Origin: Nitrosomonas sp.
Lineage (GTDB): Bacteria > Pseudomonadota > Gammaproteobacteria > Burkholderiales > Nitrosomonadaceae
Assembly: GCF_022842015.1 (NCBI RefSeq)
Contig: NZ_JALHQJ010000028.1
Coordinates: 1-39,168 of the forward strand
Length of the DNA: 39,168 nucleotides
Direction of reading: 5' to 3'
The notes under the pieces are model-generated. The model saw only the letters and a list, made by a program, of their open reading frames with translations. It was not told where the DNA came from and did no database searches. Numbering within the stretch: the stretch's first letter is position 1; each line of letters begins with the position of its first letter. Below are positions 13,211-19,877 of the stretch, one piece after another. The position numbers and the translations under genes were made by a program.

Positions 13211-13765
13211 TCACTGTTGCTTGATTTGACGCCGTTTTAGTAACTTATCTGTAAATAATGCAATCAATAGAAATGCGATGATATAGGGTATGGCAGTAAA
13301 GAAAGCTTCCTGATAATTTGTCATCTTTATCCGCAACGGATACTCATACTGCAAGGGGGGTATCCCTTCTCCTGTTACAAATAGGGTATATTGCCCTTCA
13401 TCCAAGTTAAATTCACCCTTGATGATCCCATCTGAATGATTATTCGAGTATAAAGTTGTTATGGTATCGCTTAATGCTTGGCCAGTACCTCTTACGATTT
13501 TAATAGCAATCGGCATGTCACGCAGCGCTTGATCGACGAGATCCAACACCCACAAGGTTTCACCTTCATTGGGAATTTCAGTGCAGTATTCTGCTTCCGG
13601 GTCATGTTGAGGTTGATAAGTACTCAGGTGCACCATGCTGCCAGAAATATTGCGCATGCAAATGTCTGATTCTAAGGATACTTTGCCGTGAGCGGCGGCT
13701 AAGCCCGAATAGAATGCTGCGGTGACTATGGCGATTGAAGTCCAAATTTTTATGATTTGTCTCAT
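13211..13765 (-). CDS. exported, membrane-anchored protein resembling AmoD/AmoE (PmoD) family
   Basis: This 184-residue protein has an N-terminal signal peptide (about 8-25, cleavage near AAAHG), a periplasmic domain of about 125 residues and one C-terminal membrane helix (about 156-172) followed by a basic cytoplasmic tail. That layout is the one described for the AmoD/AmoE and PmoD proteins encoded beside ammonia and methane monooxygenase, of which PmoD is a dimeric copper-binding cupredoxin. Possible metal or disulphide residues seen here are His26, C36, M37, M44, H46 and C61. It lies 146 bases downstream of amoC on the same strand, with a strong hairpin between them. Membership of the AmoD/E family rests on topology, context and partial recall of motifs. 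Confidence 0.6.
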   Translation of the reverse strand: MRQIIKIWTSIAIVTAAFYSGLAAAHGKVSLESDICMRNISGSMVHLSTYQPQHDPEAEYCTEIPNEGETLWVLDLVDQALRDMPIAIKIVRGTGQALSDTITTLYSNNHSDGIIKGEFNLDEGQYTLFVTGEGIPPLQYEYPLRIKMTNYQEAFFTAIPYIIAFLLIALFTDKLLKRRQIKQQ

Positions 13766-13854
13766 CCTATAAACTCCTACACTTATTGATCAATAATCTA
13801 TTTGAATTTTTTTGCCTTGTTTCGACGTGCTCCAAAAGGTTTCTCAGAAATCTG

Positions 13855-13892
13855 TTGTTTTCATGGTCAGTTGAAACTGACCATGAAAACAA
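13855..13892 (-). terminator. 38-base near-perfect hairpin between amoC and the AmoD/E-like gene
   Basis: TTGTTTTCATGGTCAGTT (13855-13872) is perfectly complementary to AACTGACCATGAAAACAA (13875-13892), leaving only two central bases unpaired. There is no T tract after it in the transcript direction. It may be a partial terminator, a 3' stabiliser of amoC mRNA or a processing site. Confidence 0.55.
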
Positions 13893-13911
13893 TTGCTGCA
13901 AATAAATAAGA

Positions 13912-14721
13912 CTAAGGAACGATACGATTGTTCAGAATATCTCTGCTTGCGTTGTTCCAGGTTACATCAGTCAGGTTAGAGTAACGGGTGATAATCTGTG
14001 CTGCAATACCACCTGAAAATAAACCTGCCCAGCCCAAAATCACAAATCCCCAATGCAAAGGCGCGCTAAACAGTTCTTCCATGAACCAGAATGCATGTCC
14101 CCATTCGTTCAATCCTACGTTTGGCAGAATCATCAATGGGCCTGCAATCGCCATGACCAACGGGAATGATGTGCCACGGCTATACAGTGGCAGACGGGTC
14201 ATCGCGTACAGGTATGACGCTACACCGCATACAATGTACATCGGGAATGAACCATAAAATACCACTACGTGACTTGGCGTAAAGCTCGTGTCACGTATAA
14301 TCACTTGGTGCCATGATGCATCTTGTTCGGTAAAGAAGCTGCCGCCCCAGTAAACACCAAACAAGTAAACACCCAGCCACATCATCCAGTAAAAATAACG
14401 TTTGATCTCTAGCTTGGTGTCCAGATTGTCCAGTTGCTCCTTGGTGTCACGGGTCTTCAGTATCCAGCCCCAGGTTACCAACGCAAACAAAGGCATCAGA
14501 GTCATGTGTACCCGCCACAGTCCCATCCATACCTTGTCAAATTCCGGTTCCATCGAGTCCATACCGTGTGAATATGCAAATGTCCTTTGGTACCATATCC
14601 AAAATATCGCTACCAGAAGCATCGTTAACATGCCTATCTTGTAATATTTTGAGTCATACCACAGCGACATGTCGTAGTTGGCGCTCGCTGCGCCGCTAGT
14701 TGTGCCATAGGTTGTTGCCAT
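13912..14721 (-). CDS. amoC: ammonia monooxygenase subunit C, isolated copy
   Basis: AmoC is a membrane subunit of ammonia monooxygenase, the copper enzyme that oxidises ammonia to hydroxylamine. From the ATG at 14721 (GGAGG site at good distance; a second ATG sits directly before it) the product has 269 residues, close to the usual 271. It has about six membrane helices. The metal ligands known from PmoC crystal structures are all present: D134, H138 and H151 ([13 protein letters not shown]) and N205, H209 and H223 (NEWGH, PLHWGF). No amoA or amoB is adjacent, so this is a singleton like amoC3 of Nitrosomonas europaea, which has been linked to stress recovery. A kinase/regulator pair is upstream on the same strand and an AmoD/E-like gene downstream. 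Confidence 0.96.
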
Positions 14722-14765
14722 CATTTCCTCCATTTGTTTGATCAATAAATATACGCAAGTAATGA

Positions 14766-14870
14766 TTTATAATTAATTACATACTTAATGTAATTGCATA
14801 AATAATCACTTTTTTACGCAAATAAGCATAGCGCATTGCTATTCATTTACAATGAGTGTATCCACTCATT
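14766..14870 (-). promoter_or_regulatory. amoC: amoC upstream region with two inverted repeats
   Basis: In the 260-base gap before amoC I see ATTACAT-N5-ATGTAAT (14776-14794), a 19-base inverted repeat, and AATGAGTG-N4-CACTCATT (14851-14870), an 8-base-arm repeat. A -10-like TATAAA lies on the minus strand at 14766-14771, about 45 bases before the start codon, so the first repeat would overlap the -35 zone. These are candidate operators. No sigma-E-type GGAACTT box was found. Confidence 0.4.
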
Positions 14871-14982
14871 TTGTGAGGATAGGGTGCTTATCAGTTTTTA
14901 ATGTTTTCGATTGGCAATTATTTGAAAACAAAAGTACTCAACATCGAATTAAATGATGAAGAAGTCGTAACTCAAGAAGGTT

Positions 14983-15657
14983 TCAATGTGATGAAGTGGG
15001 AGGATGATTAACGGGGGCCGGGTTTTCTGAATATTGCCCTTGTAATCGCAGCGCAAAGTTAATCAGACTATTAGGTCCGCTAAGATTGAGTTTTCGTGAA
15101 ATATTGACACGGTGATTCTCAATGGTTTTTTGACTTACAAACAGCTTTTGAGCAATTTGCGGGGTGGTGAATCCTGCAGAAATTTTTGTGAGTATTTTGC
15201 GCTCAGTTTTCGTGAGACTTGTTATTTTATCCAGTGCGGTTTCGATTAATTTGTCGCGCTCCCTCTGAGTATTCTGTGTTTTTGCTAATTTCTCAATTCT
15301 TGCATTGATGCTGTTAATTAATTCTTCTTTGGTGAATGGCTTGGAAAGATAATCATCCGCGCCCATGTTCATGCCCATGCGAGTATCGGAGCGGGTCGAT
15401 TTTGCTGTAAGGAAAATAAATGCAGAAGATGATAGTTGGGGTGCTTGTTTTAATCGGGCAAGCACGTCGAAGCCATCAATTCCAGGCAGCATGATATCGC
15501 AAATAATGATATCGGGAATAAACTCCAGCGCTGTTTTTATTCCATCTTCACCGGAAGGGGCGCTGATTACCCGATAGCCATAATGCCGAATAATTTCGGA
15601 GATATTCTCGCGCAACGATTTTTCGTCTTCGATGATAAGAATTAATGCGTTGTCCAT
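14983..15657 (-). CDS. response regulator, receiver plus LuxR-type HTH
   Basis: This 224-residue regulator has a receiver domain (about 1-125) with the acidic residues E10/D11, phospho-acceptor D54 in ICDIMLPGIDG, FLTAK and the conserved Lys in YLSKPF, a linker with coiled-coil character (about 125-150), and a LuxR/NarL-type helix-turn-helix (about 150-212; SLTKTERKILTKISAGFTTP and KTIENHRVNISRKL). It starts 9 bases after the PAS kinase stop, so the two form a pair. Its stop lies 261 bases upstream of amoC on the same strand. Control of amoC is a reasonable guess from position only. The C-terminal tail after residue 212 is short and Pro/Ser-rich. Confidence 0.92.
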   Translation of the reverse strand: MDNALILIIEDEKSLRENISEIIRHYGYRVISAPSGEDGIKTALEFIPDIIICDIMLPGIDGFDVLARLKQAPQLSSSAFIFLTAKSTRSDTRMGMNMGADDYLSKPFTKEELINSINARIEKLAKTQNTQRERDKLIETALDKITSLTKTERKILTKISAGFTTPQIAQKLFVSQKTIENHRVNISRKLNLSGPNSLINFALRLQGQYSENPAPVNHPPTSSH

Positions 15658-15666
15658 GGTTTCAGC

Positions 15667-17181
15667 TTATACCGGCAATCGGATTGTCACGGTACAACCG
15701 CTACCGACCTTGGTTTCGATATCGATATCTCCACCATGAAGTACGATAAGCTTCTTTGCAATCATGAGACCTAGACCGCTTCCAGGGAAAATTTTTGCAT
15801 TTGATGCCCGGAAAAACGATTGAAACAGGAATGGTTGATCCTTTTTCGGAATACCCATGCCATGATCCACGAGCTTTAAGAAAAAAGTATCATCCTGAAA
15901 GCTCACGCTTAGGTTAGGCGCTGGTTTTCCTTCTGAATATTTAAACGCATTTGATACAATATTGCGTAAAGCATTTCGTAACAGAATTTCATCCATATCG
16001 ATCATTCGATCGGATGCATTAAACCGGTAATCGAGTCTTCTCTGTTGTCCATTGGGTTCTACATTGGCTGCAACAAAAGCATCCATGAATTGTTTGAACG
16101 AAAGATTCTTTTTCGATAATTCTATTTTGCCTTCGTCAATTCGTCCGATATCTAAAATATTCTCCATTAGCTCGGTCATGCGAGTGGTTTCCTCAGCCAT
16201 GATAGCCTTATGTTTCTGGAACAGATCAATAAAGGCAGCGCTAAGCTGGGCTGATTCCATTTTTAGATCCAGCAAATCAATGCTGGAGCGAATAGTGGCA
16301 AGCGGCGTGCGGAATTGGTGTGAGGCAAGGTTAACAAATTGCGTTTTAAATCGATTGAGTTCGCGCTCTTTTTCCATCGCTTTTTGCAACCGTTGCTCTG
16401 CCATTTTTATCAGCGTGATGTCATTTTCTACTGCGACATAATTAATCAATTTTCCTTGGTCATCATATACTGCGGCGATATTTAGATAGAGCCAGATTTT
16501 TTCGCCACTTTTGGTGTAATTGAGGATTTCGCCGGAGAATGTGCCCGTGTTTCTCAACGACCGGGCGATTTCCTGGATGGTTGTGCTGGAGGTCTCAGGC
16601 CCTTGGAGAAAAGCTGCCGGATCAATCCCAATCACTTCCTCAGTGCTATATCCCAGAATTTTTTCAAAACTATGATTGATCCAAATAATTTTTCTCTCAG
16701 GATCAGTAATCATGACAATACCGTTGGTTTTTTCAGCGACATAGGCCATGCGCTGTAGCTCCAATTCATTCTTTTTTCTGGCAGTGATATTTTGTAACAC
16801 GCCATACAAGCCGATAATGTCTCCACCCGGATCGAGCATAGGATAGAGTGTCGTAGTGTGCCATTTAACTCTGCCATCCTGTATTTTCACCAGGAATTCC
16901 CCACTTTGCTCTTCCTTATGCGTTGTGACCTGGGTGATCAAAGCCAGCATTTTTTCTTTTTCAGATTCGGAATAGTAAGTGCCTCCAAGTAAATGAGAAC
17001 ACTCAAAATCTTTTCCGACTTCATAAAATTGATAAAGATATTCCGACCAGATTGTGAAATTTGTGGAGAACGTGTAACACCAGTCGCCTATTTCCGCAGC
17101 TTTACTGAGCAGGTGCAATCTTTTTTGCTGAAATTCAAACGAATCGAAAGATTTCAGGTTAAAGTCGGATCTGGAATTCAT
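15667..17181 (-). CDS. cytoplasmic PAS-domain sensor histidine kinase
   Basis: This 504-residue kinase has no membrane helix. A divergent PAS domain (about 28-135; the DGRVKWHTTTLYPMLDPGGD segment is typical of a PAS/PAC end) is followed by a clear PAS/PAC domain (about 145-265; ITDPERKIIWINHSFEKILG, GYSTEEVIG, GEKIWLYLNIAAVYD). Then come a short coiled coil, the HisKA domain with H288 in LASHQFRTPLATI, and the HATPase domain with NALRNIVSNAFKYSEG, VDHGMGI and GSGLGLMIAKKL. All catalytic boxes are intact. It is the partner of the LuxR-type regulator 9 bases downstream. The lack of a membrane domain suggests an internal signal such as redox state, oxygen or a metabolite. Confidence 0.92.
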   Translation of the reverse strand: MNSRSDFNLKSFDSFEFQQKRLHLLSKAAEIGDWCYTFSTNFTIWSEYLYQFYEVGKDFECSHLLGGTYYSESEKEKMLALITQVTTHKEEQSGEFLVKIQDGRVKWHTTTLYPMLDPGGDIIGLYGVLQNITARKKNELELQRMAYVAEKTNGIVMITDPERKIIWINHSFEKILGYSTEEVIGIDPAAFLQGPETSSTTIQEIARSLRNTGTFSGEILNYTKSGEKIWLYLNIAAVYDDQGKLINYVAVENDITLIKMAEQRLQKAMEKERELNRFKTQFVNLASHQFRTPLATIRSSIDLLDLKMESAQLSAAFIDLFQKHKAIMAEETTRMTELMENILDIGRIDEGKIELSKKNLSFKQFMDAFVAANVEPNGQQRRLDYRFNASDRMIDMDEILLRNALRNIVSNAFKYSEGKPAPNLSVSFQDDTFFLKLVDHGMGIPKKDQPFLFQSFFRASNAKIFPGSGLGLMIAKKLIVLHGGDIDIETKVGSGCTVTIRLPV

Positions 17182-17530: not shown

Positions 17531-17988
17531 ATGATTAACTCCGTAAAAAATACGATTTGCCTTTGGTATGACGGCGATGCTGAGGAAGCGGCGCGGCTTT
17601 ACGCCAATGCCTTCCCCGATCCGGCTGTCACCGCAGTGTGCCGCGCCCCAGGAGATTTTCCATCGGGAAAGCAGGGGGACGTGCTGACCGTCTGGTTTAC
17701 CGTCTTGGGGGTTCAATGTCTTGGGCTCAACGGCGGCCCTGCATTCAAGCACAGCGAAGCGTTTCATTTCAGGTTGCAACCGCTGACCAAGTCGAAACGG
17801 ATCGTTATTGGAACGCGATCATGGGTAATGGTGGACAGGAGAGCGCTTGCAGTTGGTGTAAGGACAAATGGGGATTGTCTTGGCAAATCACGCCAATCGC
17901 GCTTACGTAAGCGATATCGGACTCCGATCCCGCTGCCGCCGAGCGTGCGTTTAATGCGATGATGCAGATGTCAAAGATCGACATCGCG
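17531..17988 (+). pseudogene. PhnB-like (VOC superfamily) gene, frameshifted
   Basis: This is a broken copy of a PhnB/3-demethylubiquinone methyltransferase-like glyoxalase-fold protein. The first 78 codons read MINSVKNTICLWYDGDAEEA and on through LGLNGGPAFKHSEAF in one frame. The homologous reading then continues in another frame (FQVATADQVETDRYWNAI, CSWCKDKWGLSWQITPIALT), which means one base has been lost near 17765-17766. In the restored frame a TAA stop interrupts at 17908-17910, after which the family sequence DPAAAERAFNAMMQMSKIDI is still readable. The C-terminus is replaced by repeat sequence. The stretch is more GC-rich than its neighbours, suggesting acquired DNA in decay. Confidence 0.85.
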
Positions 17989-18303: not shown

Positions 18304-18384
18304 GACCCCGATTGTGTGTGACCTCGATTGTGCGATTGTGGAGTTCAACGTTGCGAAAAGTTATTTCATTTACAGGAGAAAGTC

Positions 18385-19203
18385 ATGAAAAAAGAATCTC
18401 TTTCAAAAAATAGGTTAGGTAAATGTTTGCCCCGAACTGTTTGTCGTGCAGGTGTCTTTGTGCTCGGATTTTGTATCATTGCTGATGCAGCAGCTTTTTT
18501 TGAATATGCTTCAATTGACTTCACAAAGGATACTCCGTCGGATCTTGGTATTCCTGATGCTTATCCAGAGGGGCTCGTAACTACGCCTCAAGGAGTACCT
18601 TTTAACATCGGACCAGTAGGCGGTAATGCAATTTGGTGTCCAGGAGGATGCGCAGGTTTCGGCGTGAATGACACATACAGCATGACGGCACCTGTTGGTC
18701 TAAGCGGACTCCACACCGTTTATACTTTGATGAACACTGTGTGGGAGGCTCCAGGACAGACATTAACCAAGGTCGAATTTAAGTTTGAGGGAATTACTAC
18801 TCCATATTTTGCCATGCTGACAGATGGTGACGATCTGCGTGACGGTTTGACTAGAAGCTCTATCAATGGAGTTAGCACGGTACCAGCGTTTCATATCCCT
18901 GTTGGAGTACACGGAGTTCCGTGGACTATTGATATGCAGGCCTTTTCCATTCCTGATTTTCTTTGGGATAACACACTGACCGATATAACTTTTATCACTG
19001 ATCGCACAGTCTTTCAACACGGAATATTCTTATGGGGGATTACGGCATCGACACTGGATCACGTGACACCAGGTGCAATCTCTTTGGTTCCAGAACCCGA
19101 AACCTATGCCATGTTATTAGCTGGTCTAGGGTTGATCGGATTCATGGCACGTCGCAGAAAGGGAACGACCATTTATTCTATAACAGGAGAGGTATCGTGT
19201 TAA
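18385..19203 (+). CDS. PEP-CTERM sorting-domain protein, function unknown
   Basis: This 272-residue exported protein has a basic N-terminus and a signal-peptide core (about 22-37, VFVLGFCIIADAAA), a mature region I do not recognise (rich in Gly, Thr and aromatic residues; one Cys pair in WCPGGCAG), and a C-terminal PEP-CTERM signal: VPEPETY, a hydrophobic helix MLLAGLGLIGFM and the basic cluster ARRRK. Such proteins are cut and anchored by an exosortase, usually with exopolysaccharide export; no exosortase gene is in this window. Oddly, 13 residues (GTTIYSITGEVSC) follow the basic cluster, whereas these signals usually end there. The start at 18385 has an AGGAG site. The end overlaps the next gene's GTG start. 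Confidence 0.85.
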   Translation: MKKESLSKNRLGKCLPRTVCRAGVFVLGFCIIADAAAFFEYASIDFTKDTPSDLGIPDAYPEGLVTTPQGVPFNIGPVGGNAIWCPGGCAGFGVNDTYSMTAPVGLSGLHTVYTLMNTVWEAPGQTLTKVEFKFEGITTPYFAMLTDGDDLRDGLTRSSINGVSTVPAFHIPVGVHGVPWTIDMQAFSIPDFLWDNTLTDITFITDRTVFQHGIFLWGITASTLDHVTPGAISLVPEPETYAMLLAGLGLIGFMARRRKGTTIYSITGEVSC

Positions 19204-19877
19204 TTCAAAGTACATGTTTAATAGAATACTCAAGTATTCATTCTGTAAAGCAGGGTTTCAGGAGACTTCGTACCAAAGCACTGATTTTGGGCGCCTCAAT
19301 GATAATGATGATTAACATTGGAAACGCAATCGCTGCACCCACAGAATGGAAGGTTTCCGAGGGAGGTAATGGCCATCTATATGAAGTTATCGTCCAACCC
19401 TCATTAGTGACATGGGATCAAGCACAATCCATCGCATTGAGTAAAGGGGGATATCTCGCAACGCTTACTTCCAAGGCGGAAAATGACTTTGTATTTGCTT
19501 TGGCTGCACCCGATGTAATACCGCAGGCTTGGATTCCGTGTGGTGCTTTTTGCAGTGACACCTGGGGGCCATGGTTGGGTGGTTTTCAACGTGCCGATTC
19601 TCCTGAGCCTGCCGGGGGCTGGCAATGGGTCAACAAAGATGGCGATTTTTCATACACGAATTGGGCGCCATTTGAGCCAAATGACGCGGACCCATTGGGT
19701 GAGGCATGGCTTCATTTTTTTGATAACAGTTCGTCATGGAATGATATTAATCAGAACACTTATCAGCTGCCGTCCCTCGTCGTTGAAATTTCCAGTCCTA
19801 TTCCTGAACCCATGACATATGCCTTATTCTTAGTGGGCTTGGGAATAATAACCTTACGTACACGGCGTATCAGTTAA
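19197..19877 (+). CDS. C-type-lectin-like PEP-CTERM protein
   Basis: The GTG start at 19197, with an AGGAGAGG ribosome site, overlaps the stop of the preceding gene (19201-19203), so the two are translationally coupled. The 226-residue product has an N-terminal export signal (hydrophobic about 28-45, ending NAIAA), a C-type lectin-like domain (about 55-200) and a PEP-CTERM tail (IPEPMTY, hydrophobic helix, RTRR). Lectin-fold marks are WDQAQSIALSKGGYLATLTS, GPWLGGFQ, WQWVNKDGDFSYTNWAPFEP, NDADP, and SSWNDIN near the end. It would be a surface or matrix protein that may bind carbohydrate. An upstream extension of the frame is open but lies inside the first gene. Confidence 0.87.
   Translation: MLIQSTCLIEYSSIHSVKQGFRRLRTKALILGASMIMMINIGNAIAAPTEWKVSEGGNGHLYEVIVQPSLVTWDQAQSIALSKGGYLATLTSKAENDFVFALAAPDVIPQAWIPCGAFCSDTWGPWLGGFQRADSPEPAGGWQWVNKDGDFSYTNWAPFEPNDADPLGEAWLHFFDNSSSWNDINQNTYQLPSLVVEISSPIPEPMTYALFLVGLGIITLRTRRIS

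Follow-up and report, generated by a model that had tools for sequence, protein, structure and literature searches.

Lone amoC genes, encoding a subunit of ammonia monooxygenase (AMO), have been described in several Nitrosomonas. The amoC3 gene of Nitrosomonas europaea stands without amoA and amoB, has its own promoter, and was published as a divergent subunit; it is reportedly used in stress recovery (Berube and Stahl 2012). The gene has also been linked to sigma-E. Other lone amoC genes have a neighboring amoE-like gene, and the available text of three papers gives such pairs in N. ureae (ATY38_06315-10; PMC4940428), AL212 (NAL212_2818 and 2819; PMC5118430), and strain PY1 (PMC10472526); the term "two-component" does not occur in the main texts of these papers. 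Two lone amoC genes have also been published for Nitrosomonas sp. Is79 (accessible parts of PMC3764937, PMC4940428, and PMC5118430), and PmoD-type genes were noted near some lone pmoC genes in the part of PMC6189053 available. Here we analyze a 39,168-nucleotide stretch of Nitrosomonas sp. (GCF_022842015.1, contig NZ_JALHQJ010000028.1; the whole stretch is called the window), where a lone amoC and an AmoE-type gene, amoE2, lie beside a PAS histidine kinase (HK) and a LuxR-type response regulator (RR) that we predict to activate them from a conserved palindromic site. Within the available text of the full-text literature searched, mostly without subscription papers, no two-component system or operator was tied to lone amoC genes or amoC–amoE pairs, and no regulator or operator was described for any Nitrosomonas amo gene. 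In this literature, lone amoC–amoE pairs are already known, and the kinase, the regulator, and the palindromic site go unmentioned.

A conserved module and its palindromic site

The four genes lie on the minus strand of the window, which is contig C28 of a 3.06-Mb genome in 130 contigs, in the order HK (15667–17181), RR (14983–15657), lone amoC (13912–14721), and amoE2 (13211–13765). The gap from HK to RR is 9 bases and that from RR to amoC is 261 bases when counted to the conserved ATG at 14721, so coordinates and start codon both agree with the order and spacing given by the first-pass annotation of this DNA. That annotation had also seen no amoA or amoB here, and tblastn with both proteins over the window found neither. 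An amoA search across the 130-contig assembly gave no match, as it did in control genomes, so absence is not shown by it (amoB was searched in the window only); the operon repeats probably dropped out of the assembly.

Gene order was compared across 125 Nitrosomonadaceae genomes of four genera, with RR orthologues called at a strict cut-off. RR was found in 37 genomes, confined to the genus of the window (85 genomes, 37 RR-positive and 48 RR-negative). HK was likewise found in 37 genomes, 36 of them shared with RR, and the pair was adjacent in all 36; the non-overlap consists of a genome with an HK fragment only (G055; G-codes denote genomes, G000 being the source of the window, and L-codes denote loci) and one whose contig begins just before RR (G005). 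Directly after RR, amoC followed in 22 of the 37, with its ATG 169–358 bp past the RR stop, and in two more (G099 and G100) it came after an inserted lipid-kinase-like gene and a phosphoesterase gene. The contig ended 97–386 bp past RR in nine genomes, as expected because amoC is a repeated gene, and the palindrome was already visible in six of these. All four genes shared one contig in 13 genomes without the insertion and two with it; the 13 include G063, where the contig start cuts the kinase, and G078, where one TAG splits the kinase reading frame (L095:5244-7157). G072 is a scaffold containing stretches of N, and parts of its amoC sit at two separate places.

An alignment of 24 upstream regions of module amoC genes contained a single conserved block, the 20-bp palindrome AATGAGTGGATCCACTCATT followed by a -10-like TATTCT. 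All 25 module amoC genes whose upstream region is visible (G081 included) carried the palindrome, with 0–5 mismatches and 115–135 bp before the ATG, and it was conserved where the surrounding intergenic bases were not. The window site, a candidate operator at 14851–14870 (AATGAGTGGATACACTCATT on the minus strand), has one mismatch to this consensus, and none of 100 shuffles gave a match. The -10-like hexamer TATGCT (14825–14830, minus strand) begins 20 bp downstream, a spacing found in 22 of the 25 regions, with 21 bp in L093 and a weak TACCCT at the same place in G081; a spacer of 16 from the pattern search in L094 was a miscall and was not used. No sigma-70 consensus pair was called at the window palindrome and hexamer, and we infer that the palindrome is centered near -42.5. 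Several species carry symmetric changes on both halves (AATGAATGGATCCATTCATT, AATGAGGGGATCCCCTCATT), and others have one-sided changes. A reading of the palindrome as an RNA hairpin or terminator was rejected, as no T run follows it, its symmetry mostly spans the central bases, and its spacing to the hexamer is near-fixed.

Thirty other amoC upstream regions (21 operon and nine non-module lone; a tenth of the latter, L109, was left out as too short) all had at least 8 mismatches to the palindrome. A genome-wide search of the 85 genus genomes, allowing up to three mismatches, matched in 38 (32 RR-positive and six RR-negative). Among the 32, the match lay after RR in 28, at an amoC away from the pair in G081, at a contig end in G093, and only at an ftsH look-alike in G016 and G022. 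With the diverged, near-symmetric forms after RR in G002 and G084 (5 mismatches), the site stands after RR or before a module amoC in 32 of the 37 RR-positive genomes (30 plus G081 and G093). None of the 48 RR-negative genomes had it before amoC at this threshold: the matches in G051, G055, G004, G086, and G008 are located elsewhere, and that in G097 is away from amoC as judged by distance, about 0.9 Mb from the only amoC listed there. In G081, HK and RR are on one contig and a perfect palindrome with amoC–amoE2 is on another, and in G099 and G100, where two genes part RR from amoC, the palindrome stays with amoC. The first-pass proposal that a lone amoC has its own two-component system next to it is thus well supported, both by a gene order mostly kept among relatives, with four clear exceptions in 37, and by a site that tracks amoC and not the regulator. 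In G081 (L173:5362-6843) and G093 (L174:3236-4792), a different PAS histidine kinase gene lies divergently beside the relocated site.

Proteins encoded by the module

The kinase (504 aa) has PAS_9, HisKA, and HATPase_c domains with phospho-acceptor H288 and intact N- and G-boxes, and RR (224 aa) joins a receiver, whose phospho-acceptor D54 was assigned by position, to a GerE/LuxR-type helix-turn-helix (HTH). These marks of a two-component system lead us to predict a phosphotransfer pair with a DNA-binding regulator. RR shares its receiver, GerE HTH, and a palindromic site at an activator position with NarL/FixJ/LuxR-type response regulators, but it fits no named subfamily (the best NCBIfam model scores 101.6 bits, below its cut-off of 242), and a scan of genome contigs returned three Nitrosomonas loci, the other 77 being remote and mostly matching the receiver domain alone. 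Because HK has no membrane-spanning stretch by hydropathy (highest 19-residue value 1.3), its signal is probably cytosolic. It contains an FLQGPET motif that we liken to LOV domains, minus their cysteine, which is absent. Seven aligned kinases were 76–89% identical to that of the window; across species, kinase length ranges from 504 to 770 aa (cut or split ones excluded), with extra PAS domains, and different species may therefore sense different inputs. A paralogous kinase and regulator pair occurs in G087 (L104:6467-8842; RR 52–55%, HK 48%), with no amo gene seen within the surrounding 15 kb.

The lone AmoC (269 aa) matches PF04896 and NF041641 (388.4 bits against a cut-off of 319) and starts at the conserved ATG (MATTYG), an upstream TTG start of the open reading frame (ORF) at 14745 not being conserved. 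It keeps D134, H138, and H151 as well as N205, H209, and H223, the latter three presumably a second ligand set by likeness to pMMO. The ligand stretches are identical to those of the solved AMO 9leg, bearing out the earlier statement that all six metal-ligand positions are kept, and the first set corresponds to NeAmoC D136/H140/H153 in the accessible part of PMC7584546. Over the shared 269 residues, the protein is 100% identical to the sole other AmoC in the assembly. The first-pass suggestion of subunit exchange therefore loses its protein basis here, as the lone AmoC is not divergent, and AMO repair or extra dosage is a possible role. In eight genomes, module amoC DNA was 97.3–99.9% identical to copies in the same genome (except 92% against the operon copies of G059 and G087) and 83–96% identical between genomes; the AmoC protein is thus kept alike within a genome while promoter and partner differ. 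Since copies within a genome are nearly the same, coding-sequence reads hardly resolve the lone amoC of this group, and the amoC leader or amoE2 must report the promoter. In N. europaea, the available part of PMC6967387 describes paralogous AMO operon genes as indistinguishable in RNA-seq, while the lone amoC could be reported alone and was 1.9-fold higher under oxygen limitation, which was not significant.

AmoE2 is a PmoD/AmoE-type cupredoxin with a signal peptide (by eye and hydropathy), a Cx7MxH...C motif starting at C36 (the Cx7MxHxnC form of this family), and one hydrophobic C-terminal helix. It had no Pfam or NCBIfam match, and phmmer matched it to PmoD (6cpd, E 8e-10). In the part of PMC6189053 available, the motif is assigned to AmoE, and the CuA site of PmoD depends on the Cys, Met, and His residues of this motif; AmoE2, which shares the ligand motif, signal peptide, and C-terminal helix with these proteins (PDB 6cpd), is predicted to be a CuA-type periplasmic protein. 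A protein tree of 62 rows, from which hits under 140 residues or with stops were left out, placed 45 non-operon members in one group (support 99/95), the AmoE2 clade, distinct from but adjoining operon AmoE (10 members, that of G042 nearest), with AmoD (7) far off. The partner had been called AmoD/E-like and copper-chaperone-like: the motif, the PmoD match, and the tree make it AmoE-type and not AmoD, and its relatives form a CuA site (PMC6189053, in the part available), which leaves a chaperone role unproven. The amoE row for Is79 in the accessible text of PMC5118430 gives two operon copies and does not list amoE2.

Predicted activation and its alternatives

We consider it likely, at a probability of roughly 0.75, that RR activates amoC–amoE2 as a self-contained regulated module, a dedicated supply of AmoC and a CuA-type protein. 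The cytosolic PAS kinase would phosphorylate RR, whose phosphorylated dimers would bind the palindrome near -42.5, a class II position, and bring in RNA polymerase at a promoter with a -10 element and only a poor match at -35. Activation would turn on amoC and then the downstream amoE2, yielding extra, (nearly) identical AmoC together with a specialized CuA-type periplasmic protein, from a source separate from both the amoCAB operons and a second lone amoC of sigma-E type. Class II activator geometry at -42.5 is known from LuxR, a 20-bp site at that position suits a LuxR-type HTH, and LuxR/NarL-type dimers near -42.5 usually activate. RR binding to the site, activation, and co-transcription of amoE2 are predictions from sequence comparison, and AMO repair, assembly, and copper loading are candidate benefits. 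We tentatively suggest, as a doubtful extension, an AMO-maintenance circuit in which the kinase would sense how ammonia oxidation is faring (through redox, damage, or copper) and call for fresh AmoC and AmoE2, so that AMO in the membrane could be rebuilt or re-metallated with no call on the amoCAB operons. Such a circuit would be comparable in logic to the resupply of D1 in photosystem II repair and, with the sigma-E lone copy, would give three separately regulated supply lines for nearly identical AmoC. With roughly one good site in each genome, the predicted regulator offers an entry point to the control of AMO supply, and for this environmentally important ammonia-oxidizing enzyme, the spare-subunit locus is a ready target for regulation tests.

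The palindrome could instead be the operator of some other dimeric regulator, such as a metal or redox sensor, with the two-component pair a mere neighbor that has other targets. We regard this as rather unlikely: the pair does stand apart from amoC in four of 37 genomes, and an ftsH look-alike does occur in some RR-negative genomes, but the contrast between 0 of 48 RR-negative genomes with the site before amoC (at up to three mismatches) and 32 of 37 RR-positive genomes with it in place argues for RR, as does the fit of a 20-bp site near -42.5 to a LuxR-type HTH, and RR would otherwise lack an evident target, the ftsH look-alike being the only other recurrent place at up to three mismatches. 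Repression, with an RR dimer silencing amoC until a signal arrives, draws on the fact that a protein bound across the -35 may equally block polymerase; it seems improbable given that the site has no called sigma-70 consensus promoter, which suits an activator, and that dimers of this type at this position usually activate. Nor do we think that the module lacks a function of its own and is a relic in decay, its sequence kept similar through gene conversion. The high identity of module amoC to its genome mates, the amoC remnants in G060, G058, and G098, and the broken kinase frame of G078 could be read that way, but key kinase and regulator residues are kept, the aligned kinases remain similar, and the palindrome is conserved where adjacent intergenic bases vary, making a relic very unlikely.

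Several observations weigh against activation of amoC–amoE2 by RR. Other genes follow RR in G016, G081, G005, and G092; G022 has no palindrome in the 263 bp between RR and its contig end; and in G016, G005, G092, and G022, the region upstream of the amoE2-linked amoC is off-contig. The palindrome is absent upstream of the kinase and regulator genes in the window, and the shared ancestry of RR and site makes the counts non-independent. Joint loss of HK, RR, and amoC may be explained by deletion of neighbors alone. In G007, G098, G058, G060, G065, and G073, amoE2 is intact even though the module amoC has been lost or survives as a remnant, which points to a further role for amoE2 outside the module. 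Another factor might also read ftsH-type sequences, because the look-alike occurs in RR-negative genomes.

This look-alike, AATGAATGGATCCCCTCAGT, lies about 135–155 bp before ftsH in eight genomes (L175–L181 and L183, RR-negative G008 included), with one variant in G020. Among the ftsH upstream regions read (30 of 84; in G072 this region consists of runs of N), RR-negative G060, G064, G065, G098, and G055 carry weaker forms, and no palindrome form was found in RR-positive G094, G024, G078, and G079; we therefore do not claim ftsH as an RR target. In the recognition helix of RR, a V-to-T change in G024, G078, and G079, one clade, accompanies a symmetric A change in the site, and a V-to-M change (G002, G084, and G006) does not separate cleanly by site form, so that covariation of site and helix is suggestive only.

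Other lone amoC genes, losses, and neighboring genes

The second lone amoC of this genome, on contig C31 (L063:4147-5080), is preceded by a sigma-E-like promoter that lies some 113 bp from the ATG. The element GGAACTTT-N15-TGTCTA, which we take to be of sigma-E type, precedes the second lone amoC in six of eight genomes (the window genome and seven others), with a near-match in G087 and no clear match in G006; the exact element is absent from the rest of the 172 loci compared, save L002, which is the same place as L063. The window has no exact match, and its best sigma-E score, 10.4 (upstream of the palindrome, reached by 1 of 200 shuffles), compares with 23.9–25.1 for the six exact-match promoters, in keeping with the earlier remark that no sigma-E box is seen at this locus. 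Operon amoC upstream regions likewise score at most 10.4 and have no palindrome. The module amoC therefore shares with amoC3 the lack of amoAB and a promoter of its own, but it has neither a sigma-E-type promoter nor a divergent protein; its promoter bears a palindrome, its protein equals the other assembly copy, and the sigma-E-like counterpart of amoC3 in this genome is the lone amoC on C31. In seven complete or near-complete genomes (G020, G006, G059, G087, G078, G099, and G100), amoC occurs in three amoCAB operons and stands alone at two further places, one of them the module.

At the cut-off, amoE2 was present in 17 RR-negative genus genomes, with its frame intact in eleven, and the survey of losses sees only genomes that retain it. 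A module amoC remnant is all that is left in G060, G058, and G098, and the gene is gone from G065, G007, and G073; G062 has a transposase-like gene before amoE2, G066 keeps amoC–amoE2 without a palindrome, and the contig is cut inside amoC in G041, G049, and G050. The remaining six are G055, G004, and G014, at contig ends; G018, with a broken amoC; G008, whose amoE2 is split over two frames and whose amoC runs off the contig; and G076, with an intact, divergent amoC–amoE2 pair and no palindrome. In the AmoE2 tree, which is a protein and not a species tree, RR-negative G060, G058, G065, G066, and G062 nest beside RR-positive genomes with good support (G007 with weaker support), which makes repeated loss of the HK–RR pair probable. 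At the syntenic locus of G007 (L064:9712-14460), HK, RR, and amoC are absent, and a 911-aa ORF, P-type ATPase-like by eye, lies with others beside the intact amoE2.

A further amoC–amoE2-like pair was detected on a 78.6-kb second contig of G068 (G068:C2, L191:4845-6311), which is possibly extrachromosomal, with a sigma-E-like element scoring 16.4 (0 of 200 shuffles). We do not claim that retained amoC–amoE2 switched to sigma-E upon loss of the pair, as G068 has RR and G066, G076, and the second copy of G007 score low.

Elsewhere in the window, positions 17531–17962 encode a 3-dmu-9_3-mt domain protein that matches profile positions 2–78 of 116 only and is possibly truncated. Two adjoining exported proteins are encoded at 18328–19877, the first with a PEP-CTERM motif and the second alike by eye.

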